This document shows, in pieces, positions 2-9,782 of a stretch of DNA of 13,217 nucleotides (positions within the stretch are counted from its first letter, which is position 1; every line of letters begins with the position of its first letter). The notes under the pieces were generated by a model. That model did not search any database and was not told the DNA's origin. It saw only the letters and a program-made list of their open reading frames with translations. The position numbers and the translations under genes are program-made. Source of the stretch: Filomicrobium sp. (lineage in GTDB: Bacteria; Pseudomonadota; Alphaproteobacteria; Rhizobiales; Hyphomicrobiaceae); assembly GCA_021775655.1 (NCBI GenBank), contig JAJFHK010000056.1, positions 1 to 13,217 on the forward strand. The letters run 5' to 3'.

Positions 2-181
2 GCCTTCTTGTCCTACCGCCTGCGCGCCACGATGGCACTGTTCAGCACCGCGGAGACCCCTCACGGCGAGATGGGCGGCTTCGATGCGCTGGATGAGCCT
101 GATGGCAGCCAACTTGCCCCAGCGCAGGCAACTGGCGACCGCATGCGCCAGCTGCTCGCGCACCTCGACCGTGAGACCTAA
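2..181 (+). CDS. 3' end of an unidentified gene
   Basis: An open frame enters from the left edge and ends at a TAA at 179-181, giving the last 59 residues of a protein. The tail contains FLSYRLRATMALF, then a Gly/Asp-rich stretch (GEMGGFDALDEPDG), and ends in QLLAHLDRET. I do not recognise the family. It lies 55 bases upstream of the SbnB-type gene on the same strand, so it may be the preceding gene of the same operon. The natural partner of SbnB would be the PLP enzyme SbnA, but I see none of the C-terminal sequence I would expect of SbnA in this fragment. The frame is supported only by its openness, its alanine/leucine-rich composition and its position. Confidence 0.45.
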   Translation, partial: AFLSYRLRATMALFSTAETPHGEMGGFDALDEPDGSQLAPAQATGDRMRQLLAHLDRET

Positions 182-236: not shown

Positions 237-1253
237 ATGGCAGAGGCACCGGAATTTTATACCATTCCCGGATCGATGGTCGGAAACGTCATCGAAGAAA
301 ACAGAGCGGCGGTCTTCGAGGCAATCGAAACTGCATATCGGCTCCACGCCAAAGGCGACTCGGTCAATCCCGACAGCTACTTCCTTCTCTATCCTGAAAA
401 TCCTCGTGCACGCATCATCGCCCTGCCGGCGCACCTTGGCGGCAAAGTCCAAATGAGCGGTATCAAGTGGATTTCAAGCTTTCCAGAGAACCGTGCCGTC
501 AATCTGGCTCGCGCCTCCGCGGTCCTGATCCTCAATGACGCCTCCAATGGCTATCCCGTGGCGTGCATGGAGGCTTCGGTGATAAGTGCGACGCGAACCG
601 CAGCATCGGCGGCGCTGGCGGCAGAGCACCTAGCGATCGATCCGTTCAAGGGGATACTAAGCATCGTAGGTACCGGCATCATTGCCCGTACCACCGTCGA
701 GTGGTTGATGTTCCGCAATTGGCAGTTCGATAAAGTCTGTCTCTTCGACCTCGACAGAAATGAAGCCGAGCGTTTTGCCGGCTGGCTCCGCGACCGCTTC
801 AACCTAGAGGTCGAGATCATGGAAGAACTGGATGACGCCTTGCGCGCAGCATCCTTGGCCTTATTTACGACGACTGCGCCCGAACCGTACGTTCGCGACG
901 AAGAGACTCTCGCGCACTGTCCCACAGTTCTGCACCTGTCACTACGCGACATCGGTGAGAACATTATTCTGTCGGCGCAAAATGTGGTCGACGATATAGA
1001 GCACTGTCTCAAGGCAAAAACGTCGTTGCATTTGGCTGAAACAATGATGGGCAATCGCGATTTCATAGACGGCGTACTTGTGGATGTTCTTGAGGGGAAG
1101 GTGAAGCCCGCCAGTGACAAACCACGGATCTTCTCTCCTTTCGGGTTGGGGGTTCTCGACATCGCGGTTGGACATCTGGTCCTGGAAAAGGCACGCGAGA
1201 CCGGCCAGGCAATTCCAACGCCCAACTTCTTTAGTCATTCCGAGCGGTGGTGA
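237..1253 (+). CDS. sbnB: SbnB-type 2,3-diaminopropionate biosynthesis dehydrogenase
   Basis: This is a 338-residue protein of the ornithine cyclodeaminase/mu-crystallin superfamily, closest by eye to SbnB. In the known pathway SbnA joins O-phosphoserine and glutamate, and SbnB oxidatively cleaves the resulting N-(1-amino-1-carboxy-2-ethyl)-glutamate with NAD to give L-2,3-diaminopropionate and 2-oxoglutarate. Visible marks are GIKW (75-78) at the substrate-binding lysine, RTAA (120-123), the Rossmann loop GTGIIA (145-150), HLSLRD (233-238), characteristic of the SbnB branch, and SPFGLGVLDIAVG (300-312). The start at 237 is chosen because AGGAG at 225-229 lies 7 bases upstream and the family N-terminus begins there; the open frame extends back to 84 without a matching ribosome site. 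It is probably cytosolic and supplies monomer to the downstream NRPS genes. An amino-acid dehydrogenase or cyclodeaminase with another substrate remains possible. Confidence 0.88.
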   Translation: MAEAPEFYTIPGSMVGNVIEENRAAVFEAIETAYRLHAKGDSVNPDSYFLLYPENPRARIIALPAHLGGKVQMSGIKWISSFPENRAVNLARASAVLILNDASNGYPVACMEASVISATRTAASAALAAEHLAIDPFKGILSIVGTGIIARTTVEWLMFRNWQFDKVCLFDLDRNEAERFAGWLRDRFNLEVEIMEELDDALRAASLALFTTTAPEPYVRDEETLAHCPTVLHLSLRDIGENIILSAQNVVDDIEHCLKAKTSLHLAETMMGNRDFIDGVLVDVLEGKVKPASDKPRIFSPFGLGVLDIAVGHLVLEKARETGQAIPTPNFFSHSERW

Positions 1254-1336
1254 TCGTCATCGCACCAGCATTAGTGTGACGGCTGTCTTGAGGGGCGAGA
1301 AGCGAGAATGAGAATACAACAACCAGGGTGAACTGA

Positions 1337-4237
1337 ATGACTGGCGAAACAAGCCCCAAGGCTGAGAAAGCGACTGTCGTGCCGGCGCTTTCGGCCGCCT
1401 CGGTCGTCCAGTCGCCCGCCGGCGGCAACCCATCTATCGACTCCAAAGCGGATTTCGAACGCATCTTCGCCGACGTACTCGCAGAAATTTTGAAAGTCGA
1501 GCGTGTTGATGCTGAGCAGCATTTCTTCGATGACCTTGGTGCCGACTCGATGGTCATGGCGCGCTTTTGTGCCCGTATCCGAAAACGGTCAGACGTACCT
1601 GCCGTTTCGATGAAGGACGTTTATGCCGGACCGACGATTGCGCGCCTCGTGTCTGTTGTCGTGCCTGCTCCTACAGCGCCCGAGGCACAACAAACCAGCG
1701 ACAAATTCATTTCCAATATCGAACGCGTCTATGCTGAGGTGCTGGCCGGGATACTGGCTGTCGAAAACGTCGACACCGATAAGCATTTCTTCGATGACTT
1801 GGGAGCAGACTCGATGGTCATGGCGCGCTTTTGCGCGCGGATCCGAAAACGCGACGATGTCCCGAAGGTAGCGATGAAGGACGTCTACGCGGCCCCGACG
1901 GTCGCCCGCTTGGCTGCTGAAGTTGCGACCGCCAATTGGTCGGCCGAGACGTCCCCATCGAACCCGCCAATAGAGTCGCTTGCCACAAAAGAGCCGCTCA
2001 CAGTAGCGGAGCCGCCGATTCCGGCGACCAACGTCGAGGTTGCTGTCTGTGGTGCGCTGCAGGTCGCCACGAGCCTAGCATACCTTTATGTGTTTTCACT
2101 GGTGTTTACGGTTGGATACCGCTGGGTGGACGATGCCGCCGGATATGCCGAGACGTTCATGCGCTCGACGATCGTTGCGAGCGGGGGTTTGGTTCTTTTC
2201 TCTCTTCTCCCGATCCTGGCGAAGTGGGTGCTTGTAGGTCGTTGGACAGTCCGGCCAATCCGCATTTGGAGCCTCGATTACGTCCGCTTCTGGATTGTCA
2301 AATCTTTGATCCGTTCCAATCCCCTGGTGCTGCTCACAGGCACCCCGGTCTATGTCGCCTATCTTCGAGCATTGGGGGCGAGAATCGGCCGCAACGTCTT
2401 GATCCACTCAACTCACGTTCCTGTATGCACCGACTTGCTGACGATCGGTGACGATGCGATCGTCCGCAAGGATGCTTATTTCAACTGCTATCGCGCGCAT
2501 GCCGGTTCAATTCAGACCGGTCCGGTGAGCCTTGGTAAGAATTCCTTCGTCGGCGAAATGACGGTGCTGGATATCGACACCTCGCTTGGCGACGAAGCGC
2601 AAATTGGACATTCCTCGGCATTGTATGCCGGACAATCCATTCCTGCCAACGAACGCCGGCAAGGCTCGCCGGCGCAGCAACAGACGGCATTCAACTACCG
2701 CGACGTCCCCCAAGAGGGATGCGGCATGGCGCGAAAGGTCGCCTATTCCGCGGCCGTCTTGCTGCCAATGCTGCTGATCCCATCGGTCATGCTTAGTGCG
2801 ATGGTAACACTCGTCCATCTGATGGCCGATCGTCCACATTTCGAAGCCGCGGGGATCAGACCGTTTCTGCACTGGGAACTCTTTGTCGATGCCGTGCTTA
2901 TCTCCGCGATCCTCTTTTTCGGGTCCTTGGCGGTTGGGCTGGCGTTCGTCGGCACGATCCCACGCATCCTCAACCGCGCGCTGGTCCCGGGTAAGGTCTA
3001 CCGGCTGTATGGTCTGCAGCATGGGGCGCACCAGCTGATTGGCAGACTTACGAATAACAGGTTCTTTACATACTTGTTCGGAGATAGTTCCTACATCGTC
3101 CACTACCTGCAATGGATCGGCTACAATTTCCCGAAGGTGGTTCAGACGGGATCGAATTTCGGCATGGACCTGAAGCATGACAACCCGTTTCTCGTAACCG
3201 TCGGCAGCGGGACAGTCATCGCGGACGGGCTGTCTGTCATCAATAGCGACTATTCGAGTTCGTCGTTCCGCGTCTCCGAAGTGACGATCGGGAAGGACAA
3301 CTTCCTCGGGAATTTCGTCGCTTATCCAGCGCAGGCAAAGGCGGGCGACAATTGCCTGCTTGCCACCAAGGTCATGGTTCCAGCTGAAGGCGAAGTGCGC
3401 CAAGGGTGCGGGCTTCTGGGTTCTCCCAGCTTCGAGATACCGCGCTCCGTCGCTCGCGATCGCGACCTCGAACTCGACGACGACGACGAGCGGGCGCGAA
3501 GGCTTGCAGCCAAGGATAAGCACAACCGGATGACGATGGGCTTGTTCTTAGCCGTGCATTGGTTCGAAGCTGTCCTGATGACTGCTCTCGCATTCTCCAT
3601 AGCGGAACTCTACGGGTCGCTGGACGCTCCATTGGCCGCACTTGTCGCCACAGTTACCTTGCTCTTCGCCACCGTGCTCAGGGTTGCCTACTACATCCTC
3701 GCAGAGCGGGTCAGCACCGGTTTCCAACCACTGCGACCGCAGCAATGCTCTATCTACGATCCCTATTTCTGGTTTCACGAGCGATACTGGAAAATGATGA
3801 CCACCAGTGCCCAGTTGAGTTTCCTCGATGGCACGCCGTTCAAGGGGCTCGCGTGGCGGTTGAACGGCGTGAATATTGGCAATCGGGTCTTCGATGATGG
3901 CTGCGGCATGACCGAGAGGACCATGGTTACAATCGGCGACGACTGCACGCTCAACATGGGAAGCATCATTCAGCCGCACTCGCAGGAGGACGGCGGCTTC
4001 AAATCCGACCGAATTGAACTCGGTGTGGGTTGCACGCTCGGCGTTGGTGCGTGGGCGCACTACGGAGTGAAATTGGGACGCGGGGCTGTGTTGGCGCCAA
4101 ACGCATTTCTGATGAAAGGCGAGGAAGTGCCAGCGGGCGACTATTGGGGCGAGAACCCCGCCAGAGAGATTGCCAGCGGTAGTGTCGTGGGCAGCCCTGG
4201 TAGCCAGGCCACACAACTGGCAAATGCGGCGCAATAG
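1337..4237 (+). CDS. Tandem carrier protein fused to a Pls/PosA-type membrane polymerase domain
   Basis: This 966-residue protein has no adenylation domain. It starts with two carrier domains (about 38-108 and 126-196), each with an LGADSM motif whose serines (71 and 159) should receive phosphopantetheine. After a Pro-rich linker come about six membrane segments in pairs (235-260 and 277-300; 467-497 and 515-541; 735-757 and 763-788). Each pair is followed by a soluble region with Gly/Ile-spaced hexapeptide-like repeats (about 345-435, 605-690 and 842-932). TM pair plus soluble domain, three times, is the known layout of the C-terminal half of epsilon-poly-L-lysine synthetase, where the tandem domains form peptide bonds between amino acids without classical condensation domains. 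A highly charged stretch (706-730, with DDDDE) precedes the third TM pair. It starts 83 bases after the SbnB gene; AGGGTG at 1325-1330 is a modest ribosome site. The likely role is polymerising or transferring carrier-bound amino acids at the inner membrane. Architecture is clear; substrate is inferred. Confidence 0.85.
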   Translation: MTGETSPKAEKATVVPALSAASVVQSPAGGNPSIDSKADFERIFADVLAEILKVERVDAEQHFFDDLGADSMVMARFCARIRKRSDVPAVSMKDVYAGPTIARLVSVVVPAPTAPEAQQTSDKFISNIERVYAEVLAGILAVENVDTDKHFFDDLGADSMVMARFCARIRKRDDVPKVAMKDVYAAPTVARLAAEVATANWSAETSPSNPPIESLATKEPLTVAEPPIPATNVEVAVCGALQVATSLAYLYVFSLVFTVGYRWVDDAAGYAETFMRSTIVASGGLVLFSLLPILAKWVLVGRWTVRPIRIWSLDYVRFWIVKSLIRSNPLVLLTGTPVYVAYLRALGARIGRNVLIHSTHVPVCTDLLTIGDDAIVRKDAYFNCYRAHAGSIQTGPVSLGKNSFVGEMTVLDIDTSLGDEAQIGHSSALYAGQSIPANERRQGSPAQQQTAFNYRDVPQEGCGMARKVAYSAAVLLPMLLIPSVMLSAMVTLVHLMADRPHFEAAGIRPFLHWELFVDAVLISAILFFGSLAVGLAFVGTIPRILNRALVPGKVYRLYGLQHGAHQLIGRLTNNRFFTYLFGDSSYIVHYLQWIGYNFPKVVQTGSNFGMDLKHDNPFLVTVGSGTVIADGLSVINSDYSSSSFRVSEVTIGKDNFLGNFVAYPAQAKAGDNCLLATKVMVPAEGEVRQGCGLLGSPSFEIPRSVARDRDLELDDDDERARRLAAKDKHNRMTMGLFLAVHWFEAVLMTALAFSIAELYGSLDAPLAALVATVTLLFATVLRVAYYILAERVSTGFQPLRPQQCSIYDPYFWFHERYWKMMTTSAQLSFLDGTPFKGLAWRLNGVNIGNRVFDDGCGMTERTMVTIGDDCTLNMGSIIQPHSQEDGGFKSDRIELGVGCTLGVGAWAHYGVKLGRGAVLAPNAFLMKGEEVPAGDYWGENPAREIASGSVVGSPGSQATQLANAAQ
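1448..1924 (+). repeat. Tandem duplication encoding two carrier domains
   Basis: Two carrier-domain coding units (1448-1660 and 1712-1924) are offset by exactly 264 bases. By hand alignment about 51 of 71 residues are identical, including an unbroken 23-residue block around the phosphopantetheine serine. At DNA level, 1520-1534 matches 1784-1798 and 1544-1569 matches 1808-1833 exactly, while other codons differ at third positions. This suggests an internal duplication kept similar by selection or gene conversion. Confidence 0.9.
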
Positions 4238-4279
4238 CAGGGGCGCGCGCCACGTCTGCAGAACGAGGATAACAATTCG

Positions 4280-6820
4280 ATGGATAATCTAACTGAACGC
4301 CACCGCCAATACTGGCACAATGTCCTCAACGCCGGCGGTGTCACGACAATTCCTCGCTGGACGCTGCGCCCGACGGCAGCCGTGCAGGAGCATGAGGAGA
4401 AGATCGGCAATACATTGTTCGCCGGCTTACGACGCCTAGCAGATGAAAGCGCCATGCCTGTCGGGACGCTGCTGCTGGCGGCGCACGCAAAGGTGCTGGC
4501 TGCCTTGTCGGGTGACGTGAACGTGACGACAGGCTACCTGATCAGCTCTGCCGATCGGCCACTGCCCTGCCGGCTCGTCGTCGAACCCGGCTCTTGGCGG
4601 AATTTACTGAGCGCCATCCACCGGCGGGAAGTGGAGTTGTTGTCGAACAGCGCATTTCCTGTTGAGCAACTCGCGCGCGATTTGAATATCACCCAGCAGC
4701 CTTTCGAAACCACATTCAGCCCGGCCGGCAAGGTTGATCCGCCCGCCGAGGAGACGCTGCTTTCCGTGATTGTCTCGAGCGAGGCAGATGCACTCGCGCT
4801 ACGCATACAGTATCGGGCTGATGCGCTCGACGCATCGAGCGCAGAGAGAATTGCGGGCTACCATCTCAAGGCCCTCGAATTGATGGTTGCCGATCCCGGC
4901 ACTGAGCACGCCATGCAGAGCCTGCTGTCGGACGACGAGAAGCACCATCTGATCGAGGGGCTGGCCGGTCCACGCCGCGACCTTCCGGACATTCGTCTCC
5001 ACGAGCTGTTTGAGCAACGCGCGGCGAGCCAGCCGGAAACGATTGCCGCCGTCTGTGGCGACAGGAAATGGACGTATCGCGAACTCAACGAACGCTCGAA
5101 CCGTTTGGCACGGTCCCTGGTTGCGCGCGGCCTCGAAAAAGAAGGGGTCGTCGCGGTGGTGACGGAGCGTAACCTCGACTGGTTGGCGTCCGTGCTTGCG
5201 ATCTTCAAGTCTGGCGGCGTCTACCTTCCAGTTGAGCCGCATTTTCCGGCCGATCGGATAGCGCGCATGCTGTCACGCTCTGAATGCACAATTGCCTTGA
5301 GCGAGACTGGCAGCGACGCATCGCTCGATGAGGCCTTAAAGACGCATATAAGCGTGCAAAAGCTGCTGATCGCTGATGCCGATAAAGAGGGGCACGCGGA
5401 CGTCAATCTCGGCATCGAGGTCGCCGCCAATCAGGCCGCCTACATCTACTTCACGTCTGGTTCGACCGGCGAGCCAAAAGGCGCGATGTGCGAGCACGCC
5501 GGCATGCTGAACCACGTCCTGGCCAAAATGGAGGATTTTGGCATTGAAGAGGGGCAGGTCGTCGCAGAAATCGCACCGCAGTGCTTTGACATCTCGTTAT
5601 GGCAGCTCGTCGCCGCGCTCCTCGTCGGCGGACGGACCCATATCATCGAGCAGGACGTGGTTCTCGATGTCCACCTGTTCATCGAGACGGTCTCTCGCGG
5701 TGAAGTCTCGGTCATGCAGATCGTCCCCTCCTACCTTGAGGTCGTTCTTTCATATTTGGACGAAAACGATGTCGATCTGCCGAACCTGCATTGCGTATCC
5801 GTGACGGGCGAGGCGATCACCAAGGAACTTGCCGTGCGCTGGTTCGCCAAGAAGCCAGCGATCAAGCTCGCGAACGCCTATGGACTGACAGAGACATCGG
5901 ACGACACGAACCACGAGGTTATGGTCCGTGCCCCGGAGGGCAAGCAGGTTCCGCTCGGTCCGTGTATCAGGAACGTCCATGTTTATATCGTCGATGACAA
6001 TCTTTCTCTGGTGCCGAGCGGTGCCCCAGGTGAGATCGTGTTCTCGGGTATTTGCGTCGGCCGGGGTTACGTCAATGATCCCGAGCGAACGAGCAAGGCA
6101 TTTTTGGCCGATCCGATACGTGAGGGAGAACGGCTCTACCGAAGCGGTGACTTTGGCTGCTGGAGCCCGGACGGCAAACTCGAGTTTCTCGGCCGACAGG
6201 ACTCTCAGGTAAAAATCCGCGGTTTCCGGATCGAGATCGGCGACATAGAGAACGCCTTGCTGCGCGTCGACGGTGTTTCCATCGGCGCTGTGGTCATCGA
6301 CGAACGAGACAATGGCAGCAAGCAACTCGTGGCCTTCTATTCAGGACCCGAGCGGATCGATGCGGAGGCGATGCGGAGTTCCCTGGCGCGCGCCTTGCCG
6401 GAATACATGGTGCCATCGGTCTTTCATTGGCAGGAGGCGTTACCTCTCACCGCAAACGGAAAGATCGACAAAAAACATCTAAGAGTGCTCGCCGCCGATC
6501 TCAACGAAGAGAGCCGAGTGTTTGAGGCTCCCGTAACACCTACTGAACATGAGGTGGCCGCGGCCTGGGCCAAGGTGCTGAATGTCGAGCCAAAAACCGT
6601 TGGGCTGCGCGATCACTTCTTCGATCAGGGCGGCACGTCCTTGTTGGCCGTCAAGCTTGTCATCGGACTGGGGCGCAAGGTGACGCTTCGGGACGTCAAA
6701 GAAAAGCCGGTTCTGGCCGACCTGGCTGCGCTGATCGATGCCGGCACGGGCGAGAGTGTATCCCAGGATGCGCCCTTGCAAATGGTCAATCTAGGCAGTT
6801 CGCCGTCGCAGGAACAGTGA
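4280..6820 (+). CDS. NRPS: condensation C-lobe remnant, adenylation and carrier domains
   Basis: This is an 846-residue amino-acid-activating synthetase. Residues about 8-225 resemble only the C-terminal lobe of a condensation domain (YWHNVL at 11-16, the LLLAAHAKVLAALSG region near 64-78, FPVEQLARDL at 126-135); the N-lobe with HHxxxDG is absent. The adenylation domain spans about 240-735: WTYREL (264-269), FTSGSTGEPKG (391-401), FDISLW (436-441), NAYGLTE (532-538), YRSGDF (620-625), GRQDSQVKIRG (638-648) and LPLTANGKID (721-730). A carrier follows at about 755-820 with DQGGTSLL and serine 787. Aligned by eye to GrsA PheA, the ten pocket residues read D-I-W-Q-S-T-A-D-D-K; the two acidic positions fit a basic amino acid such as Dap. 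GAGGA at 4265-4269 supports the start. It follows the Pls-like gene by 42 bases and probably loads its own carrier and perhaps the tandem carriers in trans. There is no thioesterase. Confidence 0.9.
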   Translation: MDNLTERHRQYWHNVLNAGGVTTIPRWTLRPTAAVQEHEEKIGNTLFAGLRRLADESAMPVGTLLLAAHAKVLAALSGDVNVTTGYLISSADRPLPCRLVVEPGSWRNLLSAIHRREVELLSNSAFPVEQLARDLNITQQPFETTFSPAGKVDPPAEETLLSVIVSSEADALALRIQYRADALDASSAERIAGYHLKALELMVADPGTEHAMQSLLSDDEKHHLIEGLAGPRRDLPDIRLHELFEQRAASQPETIAAVCGDRKWTYRELNERSNRLARSLVARGLEKEGVVAVVTERNLDWLASVLAIFKSGGVYLPVEPHFPADRIARMLSRSECTIALSETGSDASLDEALKTHISVQKLLIADADKEGHADVNLGIEVAANQAAYIYFTSGSTGEPKGAMCEHAGMLNHVLAKMEDFGIEEGQVVAEIAPQCFDISLWQLVAALLVGGRTHIIEQDVVLDVHLFIETVSRGEVSVMQIVPSYLEVVLSYLDENDVDLPNLHCVSVTGEAITKELAVRWFAKKPAIKLANAYGLTETSDDTNHEVMVRAPEGKQVPLGPCIRNVHVYIVDDNLSLVPSGAPGEIVFSGICVGRGYVNDPERTSKAFLADPIREGERLYRSGDFGCWSPDGKLEFLGRQDSQVKIRGFRIEIGDIENALLRVDGVSIGAVVIDERDNGSKQLVAFYSGPERIDAEAMRSSLARALPEYMVPSVFHWQEALPLTANGKIDKKHLRVLAADLNEESRVFEAPVTPTEHEVAAAWAKVLNVEPKTVGLRDHFFDQGGTSLLAVKLVIGLGRKVTLRDVKEKPVLADLAALIDAGTGESVSQDAPLQMVNLGSSPSQEQ

Positions 6821-6853
6821 ACGCTCAGACAAATATTCTAGGAAGGAAACTCA

Positions 6854-7828
6854 ATGTCGTCCTCCTCTAACCAACAGTCATTTCAATTCGACTTGCGACC
6901 AGATAGTCCCGCCGTTGCGTATGTCACCCCCAGCGGCAGCGCGGCCAGCTGGGTCAGCGAGAACCGGGATGTGCTGCGGGCCGGTGTCACCCAACATGGC
7001 GCCGTGCTGGTTCAAGGACTTGGATTGAAGGATTCAGCCGAAGTTGCTGCCGCCTTTCGCGAACTCGGCTCAAAACTAGTAAAGGACAGAGAGGCATTCG
7101 CCGCAAGAACGCAAGTTTCGGAGGGCGTGTATTCCTCGACACCATGGCCACCTGGTCAACCGATGTGCATGCACAACGAGATGAGTTACGTGCACGAGCC
7201 GGCTGGTCTCATGATGTTTGCCTGCTTGAAGGCGCCGGCCTCCGGCGGTGCGACAGCAGTGTCCGACGCATTCGACGTTCTTGCAAGTTTGCCGGCGCAA
7301 CTGGTCGAGCGGTTTGAGCAAGAAGGCTGGATGCTCACGCGCAACTACAACGAAGAGATTGGTTCTTCGTATGCGGAGGCATTTGGAACCGAAAGCCGGG
7401 ACGAAATCGAAGCCTACTGCAAGGCTAACAGTATCGACTTCGAGTGGCAATCGGATGGGGGGCTCAGGACGAAACAGCGCCGTCCGGCAGTTGTGAAGCA
7501 CCCCGGAACCGGGCAACGTTGCTGGTTCAATCAGATCGCGTTTCACAACGAGTGGACCCTTGATCCGGAGGTGCGCGAATACCTCGTGGAAGTTTATGGT
7601 AGCGACGGTTTGCCGTTCAACACGAGTTTCGGAAACGGCGGCGCGATTGGCGAAGACGTTGTGCAGGCAATTAACGAGACCTACGAGGGTTGCACGAAAC
7701 GCGAGGCTTGGCAGTCAGGTGATTTGATGCTGGTCGACAACATCCGCATGGCGCACAGCAGGGAGGCGTATAGCGGCGAGCGCGAGGTTTTAGTCGCGAT
7801 GGCCGAACCGGTTCGATTTTCCAACTGA
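6854..7828 (+). CDS. SyrP/TauD-like Fe(II)/2-oxoglutarate dioxygenase
   Basis: This 324-residue protein belongs to the TauD/TfdA and clavaminate-synthase-like oxygenases. The iron ligands are visible as H107-x-E109 (MHNEMSY) and H301 (MAHSRE), and R310 (SGERE) is the expected 2-oxoglutarate-binding arginine. HxE instead of HxD is known in the clavaminate synthase branch. Supporting patches are HGAVLVQGL (48-56), ASGGATAVSDA (129-139) and WFNQIAFHN (224-232). SyrP, a known relative, beta-hydroxylates an aspartyl residue held on an NRPS carrier, so a carrier-bound amino acid from this cluster is the likely substrate; that step is inference. It starts 33 bases after the NRPS with a strong GGAAGGAA ribosome site at 6841-6848, which fits co-translation in one operon. 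It is presumably cytosolic. Confidence 0.88.
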   Translation: MSSSSNQQSFQFDLRPDSPAVAYVTPSGSAASWVSENRDVLRAGVTQHGAVLVQGLGLKDSAEVAAAFRELGSKLVKDREAFAARTQVSEGVYSSTPWPPGQPMCMHNEMSYVHEPAGLMMFACLKAPASGGATAVSDAFDVLASLPAQLVERFEQEGWMLTRNYNEEIGSSYAEAFGTESRDEIEAYCKANSIDFEWQSDGGLRTKQRRPAVVKHPGTGQRCWFNQIAFHNEWTLDPEVREYLVEVYGSDGLPFNTSFGNGGAIGEDVVQAINETYEGCTKREAWQSGDLMLVDNIRMAHSREAYSGEREVLVAMAEPVRFSN

Positions 7829-7897
7829 ATGTCGATCGGACCGGTGTTGTGAGCGCTGGGCGGCAAAGGAAATGGTTACCCAAGCGGAGCTCGTGGC

Positions 7898-8719
7898 TCA
7901 CCTGCCGACGCCCTGGACGCTGAACGCCCACTGCTCCGCTTGGCCGAACGCGCCGCTCGCACGAGTCAATTGAGGTCTGCCCTGCGAAGTAAACGCGAAG
8001 CTCTTGAGATCGTGTGAAATGCCTCCACCGGTCGCCTTGATGAGCGCTTCGCCGAGAGTCCAGTGGCGATAGAAAAGCGACCGGCGTTCCAGCCCGATTG
8101 CAGAGCTGGCCACCGCGACGAAGGTCTCCTGCGCAAATGCGAATTCTGCGATCTCCAAGAAGTCCGGCAAGTCTTGTTGTATTTCGATGTCAACTCCGAC
8201 GGGCGCGCGAGCCAACGCTACGGCCACCGCGCCGTCAGTGTGGCTCAAGTTGAAATGCAGGACGTCTCGGGGAGAGGGCCAAGGCCAAACAAGATAGGGC
8301 TTTCCGAATGGGCCGCGTCCGAAGATGAGTTCGCTTGGGGGATGAACCAACATCGACCCGAGCAGGAGCCGCAAAGATGCGTGCGCGGTCCCAACGCTCA
8401 GTTTGTGTCTTGGTGCCAACCGCTTTATGCGCGAATTTGTCTCCCGATCCAGATATCGACCGAGGTACTCATCGGACTCGGTCTTAGGATCGGTGACATT
8501 GCCGAGCCAAAGCCATAGCTCGCCAACGGCGAGTTGCCTTTCTCGCGCTTCGCCAATCGAGGAAAGATACCGTACTTTCGGCGACGCGCAGTCACTTTGA
8601 AGCGCCCACGCAAGCGCATGGGATGCCCCTTCCAGCTTTCTGGCTCGGATCGAGTGTATCAATTCCATCGCCGCGCAACCGAGATCCTCAGACTTGTCAG
8701 CGGGTCCCACTGGTGTCAT
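7898..8719 (-). CDS. Sfp-type 4'-phosphopantetheinyl transferase
   Basis: This enzyme transfers phosphopantetheine from coenzyme A to the serine of carrier domains. Motifs are GRGPFGKP (134-141), FNLSH (156-160), VGVDIE (174-179, with the magnesium-binding D177 and E179) and WTLGEALIKATGGG (220-233, catalytic E224 and K228). The usual lysine in WTxKEA is glycine here, a small deviation. The gene is convergent to the oxygenase gene, with 69 bases between the stop codons, and would activate the three carriers encoded nearby. The start is uncertain: the ATG at 8719 has no good ribosome site, an ATG at 8668 is also in frame, and the conserved domain begins only at ELWLW (67-71), so the real protein may be up to about 50 residues shorter. 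No other function is likely. Confidence 0.9.
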   Translation of the reverse strand: MTPVGPADKSEDLGCAAMELIHSIRARKLEGASHALAWALQSDCASPKVRYLSSIGEARERQLAVGELWLWLGNVTDPKTESDEYLGRYLDRETNSRIKRLAPRHKLSVGTAHASLRLLLGSMLVHPPSELIFGRGPFGKPYLVWPWPSPRDVLHFNLSHTDGAVAVALARAPVGVDIEIQQDLPDFLEIAEFAFAQETFVAVASSAIGLERRSLFYRHWTLGEALIKATGGGISHDLKSFAFTSQGRPQLTRASGAFGQAEQWAFSVQGVGR

Positions 8720-9146: not shown

Positions 9147-9782
9147 TCAGATATCCATCTTCTCTGCTAGTTCAATGGCGTCATCAACCTCGATGCCGAG
9201 GTAACGAACAGTGCTTTCGATCTTCGAATGACCACGTAAGAGCTGAACAGCTCTGAGGTTTCCGGTTCGACCGTAGATCAGCACCGCCTTCGTCCTGCGC
9301 AGGGAGTGCGTGCCGAACTTCGTTGGATCGCGCCCAATGCTGGCCCCCCATTCCTGGACGAGGCGGGAATATTGGCGAGTGGTCAGACCGGCGCGGTCAC
9401 CGCCCCCTGCAAAAAGGAACTGACACGGTTTCCGTCCTGCCATCCGCAGATAATCATCGATTGCCATTCGTGTTTGTTCGGTCATTTCGAACCTTACTGG
9501 CCGACCGGTCTTCTTCTGCCGAATGGTTGCGCAGTCCTGAGTGTAGCCGCTCGGTGCCACGTCCTCGACGCGAATTGCAACGACGTCACTGCTACACAGC
9601 TTGCTATCGATTGCGACGTTAAAGAGCGCAAGATCTCTCTTCTTGTCGTAGATCTGCAGCTTGGTCCGGATTGACCAGACGTGGCTCGGTCGCAAGGGCG
9701 GCTTGGGGCCGACGTGCTTTCACCTATTACAAGGTGTGCGCCGAGCTGGGTTGGTGGCAACTGGTGCTTGATAGTCTTCCAT
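9147..9782 (-). pseudogene. Broken tyrosine recombinase/integrase
   Basis: This is a relic of the short (about 210 residue) tyrosine recombinases common in rhizobial genomes. The intact-looking part (9147-9695) begins RPSHVWSIRTKL and carries THSLRRT, LLRGHSK and STVRYLG, giving the expected H, R, H and Tyr (159, 162, 185 and 194 of the full frame). Reading upstream in the same frame leads to an ATG at 9780-9782 with AAGGAG 7 bases before it, so the original start is clear, but codon 21 is TGA (complement of 9720-9722). The sequence around the stop (NR, stop, KHVGPKPPLRP) resembles the family's NKGK-x-x-G-x-KPPL segment, so a Gly codon GGA probably became TGA. The first catalytic Arg, expected in KLR-x-x-DL, is Cys (KLCSSDVV). 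A TTG at 9693-9695 could restart translation, but that product would still lack the catalytic Arg. It is probably inactive. Confidence 0.8.

Follow-up and report, generated by a model that had tools for sequence, protein, structure and literature searches.

Among the described systems closest to the gene cluster analyzed here, the poly-diaminopropionate synthetase of Streptomyces albulus PD-1, together with NjxA and NjxB, combines an SbnA/SbnB-type supply of diaminopropionate (Dap) with a carrier and a Pls-type membrane domain that joins the units without a condensation domain; in the available sections of that report, adenylation, carrier and membrane domains form one polypeptide, the Dap genes are unlinked and no oxygenase is mentioned (PMC4668381). 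PosA and other cationic homo-polyamino acid synthetases share the TIGR02353 domain, and the available part of their description gives an AlphaFold model of PosA in which six membrane helices are arranged as three pairs, together with three packed left-handed beta-helices (PMC10522769). In sulfazecin biosynthesis, the third module of SulM activates Dap (Dap-bound domain, PDB 9n1u), the Dap genes are linked (SulG/SulH) and the 2-oxoglutarate (2OG) oxygenase SulO hydroxylates a Dap-derived carbon, but the synthetase is modular, with condensation domains and a beta-lactam-forming thioesterase, and the portions of the sources at hand mention no Pls domain (PMC11298585, PMC6097109). Here we analyze a 13,217-nucleotide contig (JAJFHK010000056.1, hereafter the window) from a metagenome-assembled genome of Filomicrobium sp. 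that is 70% complete, in which a Pls-type membrane protein is encoded beside a separate adenylation-carrier protein (AT), Dap-synthesis genes, a TauD-like oxygenase (TauD) and a phosphopantetheinyl transferase (PPTase).

The locus differs from that of S. albulus PD-1 in carrying adenylation on a separate AT with a different pocket, in having linked Dap genes and in the added TauD, and from synthetases of the PosA kind in lacking an adenylation domain in cis and in having Trp, not Glu, at the third position of the AT pocket. SyrB1/SyrB2 and CytC1/CytC3 also place a dedicated adenylation-carrier protein beside a non-haem iron enzyme, as here, but they deliver the modified residue to a condensation-type assembly line, whereas here it would presumably pass to the Pls domain. 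On balance we lean, by a modest degree, towards the following reading: a Pls-type isopeptide polymerase has lost its adenylation domain, a separate AT that loads Dap feeds it in trans, and TauD oxidises Dap units. A search of the open-access literature returned no description of this gene set; most subscription papers and MIBiG lay outside that search.

Layout of the locus and the Pls-type protein

All five genes named in an initial annotation of the window are intact open frames within 237-8719, with family scores far above chance, and an SbnA-type gene that the annotation had missed lies at the contig start. The order along the contig is SbnA-type tail, SbnB, two-carrier Pls protein, AT, TauD and a convergent PPTase (Table 1). 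Gaps of 83, 42 and 33 bases separate the four plus-strand genes of 237-7828, a close spacing as in an operon.

The Pls protein has 966 residues, which places it outside the published homologue network, restricted in the text available to proteins of 1100-1800 residues (PMC10522769). Its C-terminal domain (residues 237-942) scores 646.8 bits against TIGR02353 (cut-off 423.1) and follows two PF00550 carrier stretches; a PF00501 search of the frame (1337-4237) found no adenylation domain. An AF2 model built from 54 sequences (pLDDT 84.5) contains three pairs of long helices, six in all, and three strand arrays, and hexapeptide acetyltransferases rank first when it is submitted to Foldseek (best E 4.7e-7). 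As modelled, the protein has the helix pairs and left-handed beta-helices of Pls/PosA, and its agreement with the published description of PosA indicates that the fold is not new.

SbnB scores 389.7 bits in a TIGR03944 profile search (cut-off 326.9). Together, enzymes of the SbnA and SbnB families synthesize L-Dap. The SbnA-type fragment matches residues 347-403 of the SbnA relative in locus L022 (44% over 57 residues, blastp E 6e-14), which has PF00291 at 2-206 and a cyclic-nucleotide-binding domain (PF00027) at 247-332, its N-terminus being cut by a contig end; SbnA is complete in locus L023 (322 residues), without the cyclic-nucleotide-binding extension. The window segment 2-181 aligns to the tail behind the PF00027 domain of this relative (genome G044; L022 12045-13259), and Dap synthesis in this lineage may be under cyclic-nucleotide control. 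In G044, the neighbours of the PPTase (L022 1-2463) include the permease and ATPase of an ABC transporter of amino-acid type and an aminotransferase of class IV; at this place the window differs.

Probable substrate of AT and its likely pairing with the polymerase

Comparative analysis relied on a contig scan that yielded 527 confirmed Pls relatives. The best 80 and L022 make up 81 loci, picked by Pls similarity and hence non-random. Of these, 68 have 7.5 kb or more of sequence behind Pls and were used for counting, and the 13 with shorter flanks were left out. Locus genes were called with a GC-frame score, and some of the listed families were judged to be still antisense frames.

The AT adenylation domain scores 374.2 bits against TIGR01733 (cut-off 317.4), and its pocket code reads DIWISTADDK. 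Among 63 complete AT-type codes, 51 read DIWVSTADDK and the other 12 vary only at positions 278, 299 or 322. The residues D235, W239, A322, D330 and D331 are common to AT and the Dap-bound sulfazecin domain 9n1u; positions 236 (V/I) and 278 (V/I) are similar, 299 (M/S) and 301 (N/T) differ, and K517 lies beyond the aligned segment. A search with the pocket segment gave 32 matches, headed by 9n1u (E 9.6e-23, 83.9 bits) and then PvdL (2.7e-16, 63 bits). This shared pocket, together with the company of SbnA and SbnB, makes it very probable that AT activates Dap. The initial annotation had proposed Dap as the likely monomer while allowing that adenylation might prefer a non-basic amino acid; the match to 9n1u bears out the former, and the pocket appears to favour a short diamino acid. 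We regard as very unlikely that AT takes another small amino acid, such as diaminobutyrate (Dab) or Ser, with SbnA/SbnB making Dap only as the attacking partner or for some other purpose: the second-ranked PvdL module is presumably Dab-loading, and W239 and D331 are found in serine codes too, but Dap-bound 9n1u clearly outscores PvdL and AT is accompanied by Sbn genes without exception in the 68 testable loci.

AT is not simply a detached Pls adenylation domain. Its adenylation domain is 30-37% identical to those of related Pls proteins and has a different pocket, with Trp at the third code position, where 17 of the 18 fused Pls relatives (L004-L021) have Glu and L021 has Ser. Residues 1 to ~215 of AT make up the C-terminal half of a condensation domain; the Pfam condensation match of the window protein covers only profile positions 392-455 and falls below the cut-off, whereas the relative in L023 matches positions 190-451 of 456 of PF00668 above it and also matches PF00975. 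Simple fission of a Pls gene, implied by the earlier description of the locus as a split Pls, was consequently rejected, given the differing pocket, the preceding half condensation domain and the decayed adenylation domain that some Pls proteins retain. A conventional condensation-domain synthetase was likewise discarded, since the catalytic HHxxxD was missing from the first 280 residues in 120/120 listed AT proteins. Six loci from the Streptomyces sample (L116-L121) retain the full five-gene set, although their alignment to the window AT begins only at residue 153 or 174 and four have AT frames of only 707-747 residues; the half domain may therefore be dispensable. AT proteins exceed 1000 residues in 39 of 63 cases, one being a fusion in L043, and all 67 matches of more than 1000 residues listed in the protein search have a thioesterase domain; none was found in the window AT, unlike most relatives. 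By motif count, 43 of 63 AT loci have one carrier, ten have two, three have three, three have four and four have none.

It is likely, judging from two kinds of gene arrangement, that AT feeds the Pls protein. In L043 (Verrucomicrobiales), AT and Pls share a single open frame (1608 residues) in which all the adenylation motifs checked are present, and in seven actinobacterial operons (L030, L032, L034, L040, L044, L082 and L101) Pls begins with a relic of an adenylation domain of the Pls type, beside an intact AT. All seven relics have lost the A3 and A8 lysines, and the second, neighbouring Pls of L037 shows the same damage; these lysines are retained in the fused controls L004, L006, L009, L035 (second Pls), L069 (second Pls) and L086. 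In a quick tree of 102 Pls domains, with long branches among the fused rows and a root placed by midpoint only, trans-fed proteins, orphans and TauD-only loci form one group of 81 rows (SH-aLRT 97) adjoining the fused synthetases with a DFE pocket code, and the window Pls groups with L022, L023 and L043 (support 100). The available part of PMC10522769 reports Phe at the second pocket position for poly-Dap and poly-Dab synthetases. Mapped on the tree, the relic label calls for three or more changes, and repeated decay or loss is therefore probable. Read most simply, these sequences suggest that AT took over from the old Pls adenylation domain, which then decayed.

The oxygenase and the nature of the product

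Under the trans-feeding reading, SbnA and SbnB would supply L-Dap, as expected from their families, and AT, as its pocket and linkage suggest, would activate it and load it onto its own carrier. TauD would then oxidise the Dap unit, by hydroxylation or desaturation, either on the carrier or in the chain. By analogy with the Pls family, the carriers ahead of the Pls domain would receive the units, which this domain, a three-fold beta-helix set in the membrane, would link through isopeptide bonds to give an oligomer or polymer. The PPTase is expected to arm the carriers. The AT thioesterase of many relatives, lacking in the window, could perhaps serve in proofreading or shuttling.

The oxygenase matches PF02668 (E 1e-42). 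Of the 120 listed relatives, counting the window protein itself, 98% or more keep each of H107, E109, H301 and R310; we take H107, E109 and H301 to be the iron-site triad. By sequence, with its TauD fold family and HxE...H site, the protein fits a SyrP-like hydroxylase, and only two PDB sequences match it, 9yut and At3g21360. We hold with reasonable confidence that it oxidises a Dap unit. The alternative of a plain poly-Dap homopolymer, as in S. albulus, with TauD acting elsewhere or as a passenger, seems distinctly unlikely. It finds support in L043, where the fused AT-Pls is accompanied by SbnB and SbnA but by no TauD in the fetched stretch, and in the fact that plain poly-Dap is already described in the accessible text of PMC4668381. 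TauD, however, occurs in all 55 full-flank AT loci, its active-site residues are conserved, and it stays with Pls in four loci where AT and Sbn genes were not found (L028, L039, L047 and the short-flank L042). This sub-clade combines a carrier-Pls protein and TauD with a stand-alone adenylation protein that has another pocket (DASGATMRSK), and SbnA/SbnB were not found in its fetched stretches.

Hydroxylated poly-Dap may be the product, but the chemistry of Dap sets a catch: both sp3 carbons of Dap bear nitrogen, and hydroxylated free Dap units would be hemiaminals prone to collapse. SulO oxidises acylated Dap, acting on the monobactam, in the part of the source available (PMC6097109). Oxidation is more plausible on acylated Dap, as with SulO, or in the form of a desaturation; the substrate of TauD may accordingly be the chain rather than the monomer.

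An isopeptide oligomer or polymer appears fairly probable as the product. It is unlikely, though it deserves weight, that AT and TauD instead produce a monomer of oxidised Dap and that the Pls domain carries out a single transfer of it to a membrane lipid or sugar polymer, much as in D-alanylation, without chain growth. In its build the Pls domain resembles hexapeptide acyltransferases, ten of the 68 loci have Pls without AT, TauD or Sbn genes nearby, and L107 holds an AT/TauD pair of similar pocket in a 32-kb stretch with no gene named Pls. Single transfer accords poorly with the position of the trans-fed Pls group beside fused synthetases with a poly-Dap/poly-Dab-type code, with retention of the entire TIGR02353 domain and with the clustering of 81 loci, which revealed no conserved lipid or sugar partner. 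The pair in L107, on a plasmid of Kitasatospora sp. NBC_00039, is related to that of the window and belongs to a larger cluster that also encodes a carbamoyltransferase, an asparagine synthase, a racemase, a lyase, a kinase and condensation proteins. A literature search for a Dap route with a kinase, an argininosuccinate lyase and an SbnA-like enzyme found nothing.

Distribution, genomic setting and implications

AT and TauD occur with SbnA and/or SbnB in 55 of the 68 loci, with both Sbn genes in 53; the remaining 13 have no AT and no Sbn gene, ten of them holding none of the four genes and three TauD alone. Over the 81 loci, the commonest orders are Pls>AT>TauD>SbnB>SbnA (38) and SbnA>Pls>AT>TauD>SbnB (12). 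AT lies elsewhere in the genome for both Pls loci without AT that were searched, L028 (G424) and L035 (G423); L028 represents the one genome searched among the 13 full-flank loci without AT, and L035 lies outside the 68. Eight AT places were opened, seven from the Streptomyces sample and one from G424, and all eight hold the five genes. The possibility, raised in the initial annotation, that the genes might not co-occur in relatives is therefore not borne out.

In the bacterial order of the window, AT was found in 3 of 397 genomes, the window's own included, and SbnB exceeded the cut-off in five, with the three AT genomes among them; no SbnB exceeded it in eight genomes of the order that carry a fused Pls of DFE code (G003, G004, G009, G022, G026, G027, G034 and G051). 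By comparison, AT (E <= 1e-250) was present in 64 of 199 genomes sampled from the genus of the Streptomyces locus L070. The gene set is present in many soil actinobacteria and is not rhizobial; on these counts a rhizobial speciality was rejected, the suggestion that a rhizobial-type version could be new fails, and the oxygenase is a standard part of the set. Apart from Pls/AT, TauD, SbnA and SbnB, clustering of the 81 loci returned two families on the minus strand, one in 20 loci and one in 10, both taken to be antisense frames, and no other family in more than nine. A protein of ~400 residues starting GxDxARGxAxxGMxA lies near Pls in nine of these loci (L036 7900-9123, L046 7662-8852, L076 8031-9254 and six more); several of these Pls genes are without AT, and the protein is possibly an alternative partner. 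A second arrangement, with Dap genes beside a one-polypeptide Pls, is found in L114 (5103-12686), from G381, a genome in the family to which that of the window belongs; there, SbnA and SbnB precede a distant fused Pls (1429 residues, code DGSCVATTDK).

Table 1. Coordinates of the cluster genes in the window
Feature	Position	Strand	Basis
SbnA-type (PLP-dependent) protein, C-terminal 59 residues; remainder off contig	2..181	+	frame + blastp
SbnB-type N-(1-amino-1-carboxyl-2-ethyl)-glutamate dehydrogenase	237..1253	+	TIGR03944
Pls protein: carriers ~1469-1654 and ~1718-1942, then membrane polymerisation domain ~2045-4162	1337..4237	+	PF00550 x2, TIGR02353
AT: C-terminal half condensation ~4280-4924, adenylation ~4997-6499, carrier 6551-6736	4280..6820	+	PF00501, PF13193, PF00550, TIGR01733
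TauD/SyrP-like Fe(II)/2-oxoglutarate oxygenase, HxE...H site	6854..7828	+	PF02668
Sfp/HetI-like 4'-phosphopantetheinyl transferase	7898..8719	-	PF01648

The PPTase (PF01648 E 3e-11) scores 63.7 bits against the HetI model NF042922, far under its cut-off of 370, and likely arms the three carrier domains. It stands outside the wider conserved set: in the same search only L022 was over threshold, with a relative (59%) in the same convergent position, and L023 has a different PPTase upstream of Pls. A tyrosine recombinase catalytic domain (182 residues, PF00589) adjoins the cluster at 9147-9695, which fits its patchy spread. The plasmid matches of a neighbouring hydrolase are mostly to Rhizobium and Sinorhizobium, towards which plasmid collections are biased, and nothing was concluded from them.

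Pls synthetases have been described as single polypeptides with built-in adenylation, whereas here the loading domain has seemingly been replaced in trans. With old remnants still visible in some genomes, this suggests that units brought by a foreign carrier protein may be acceptable to the Pls domain, and trans feeding makes the choice of substrate by Pls directly testable and perhaps swappable. More tentatively, with confidence that falls short of even, we propose a widespread pathway class in which Pls has exchanged its own adenylation domain for an imported Dap-loading adenylation-carrier protein and an oxygenase, yielding an oxidised Dap isopeptide; if so, its N-acyl hemiaminal or dehydro-Dap units would make it the first among Pls-family polymers to be tailored. 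Such a class would be apparently uncharacterised and, with AT in about one third of the Streptomyces genus sample, its product could be a cationic polymer that is common yet has gone unseen.
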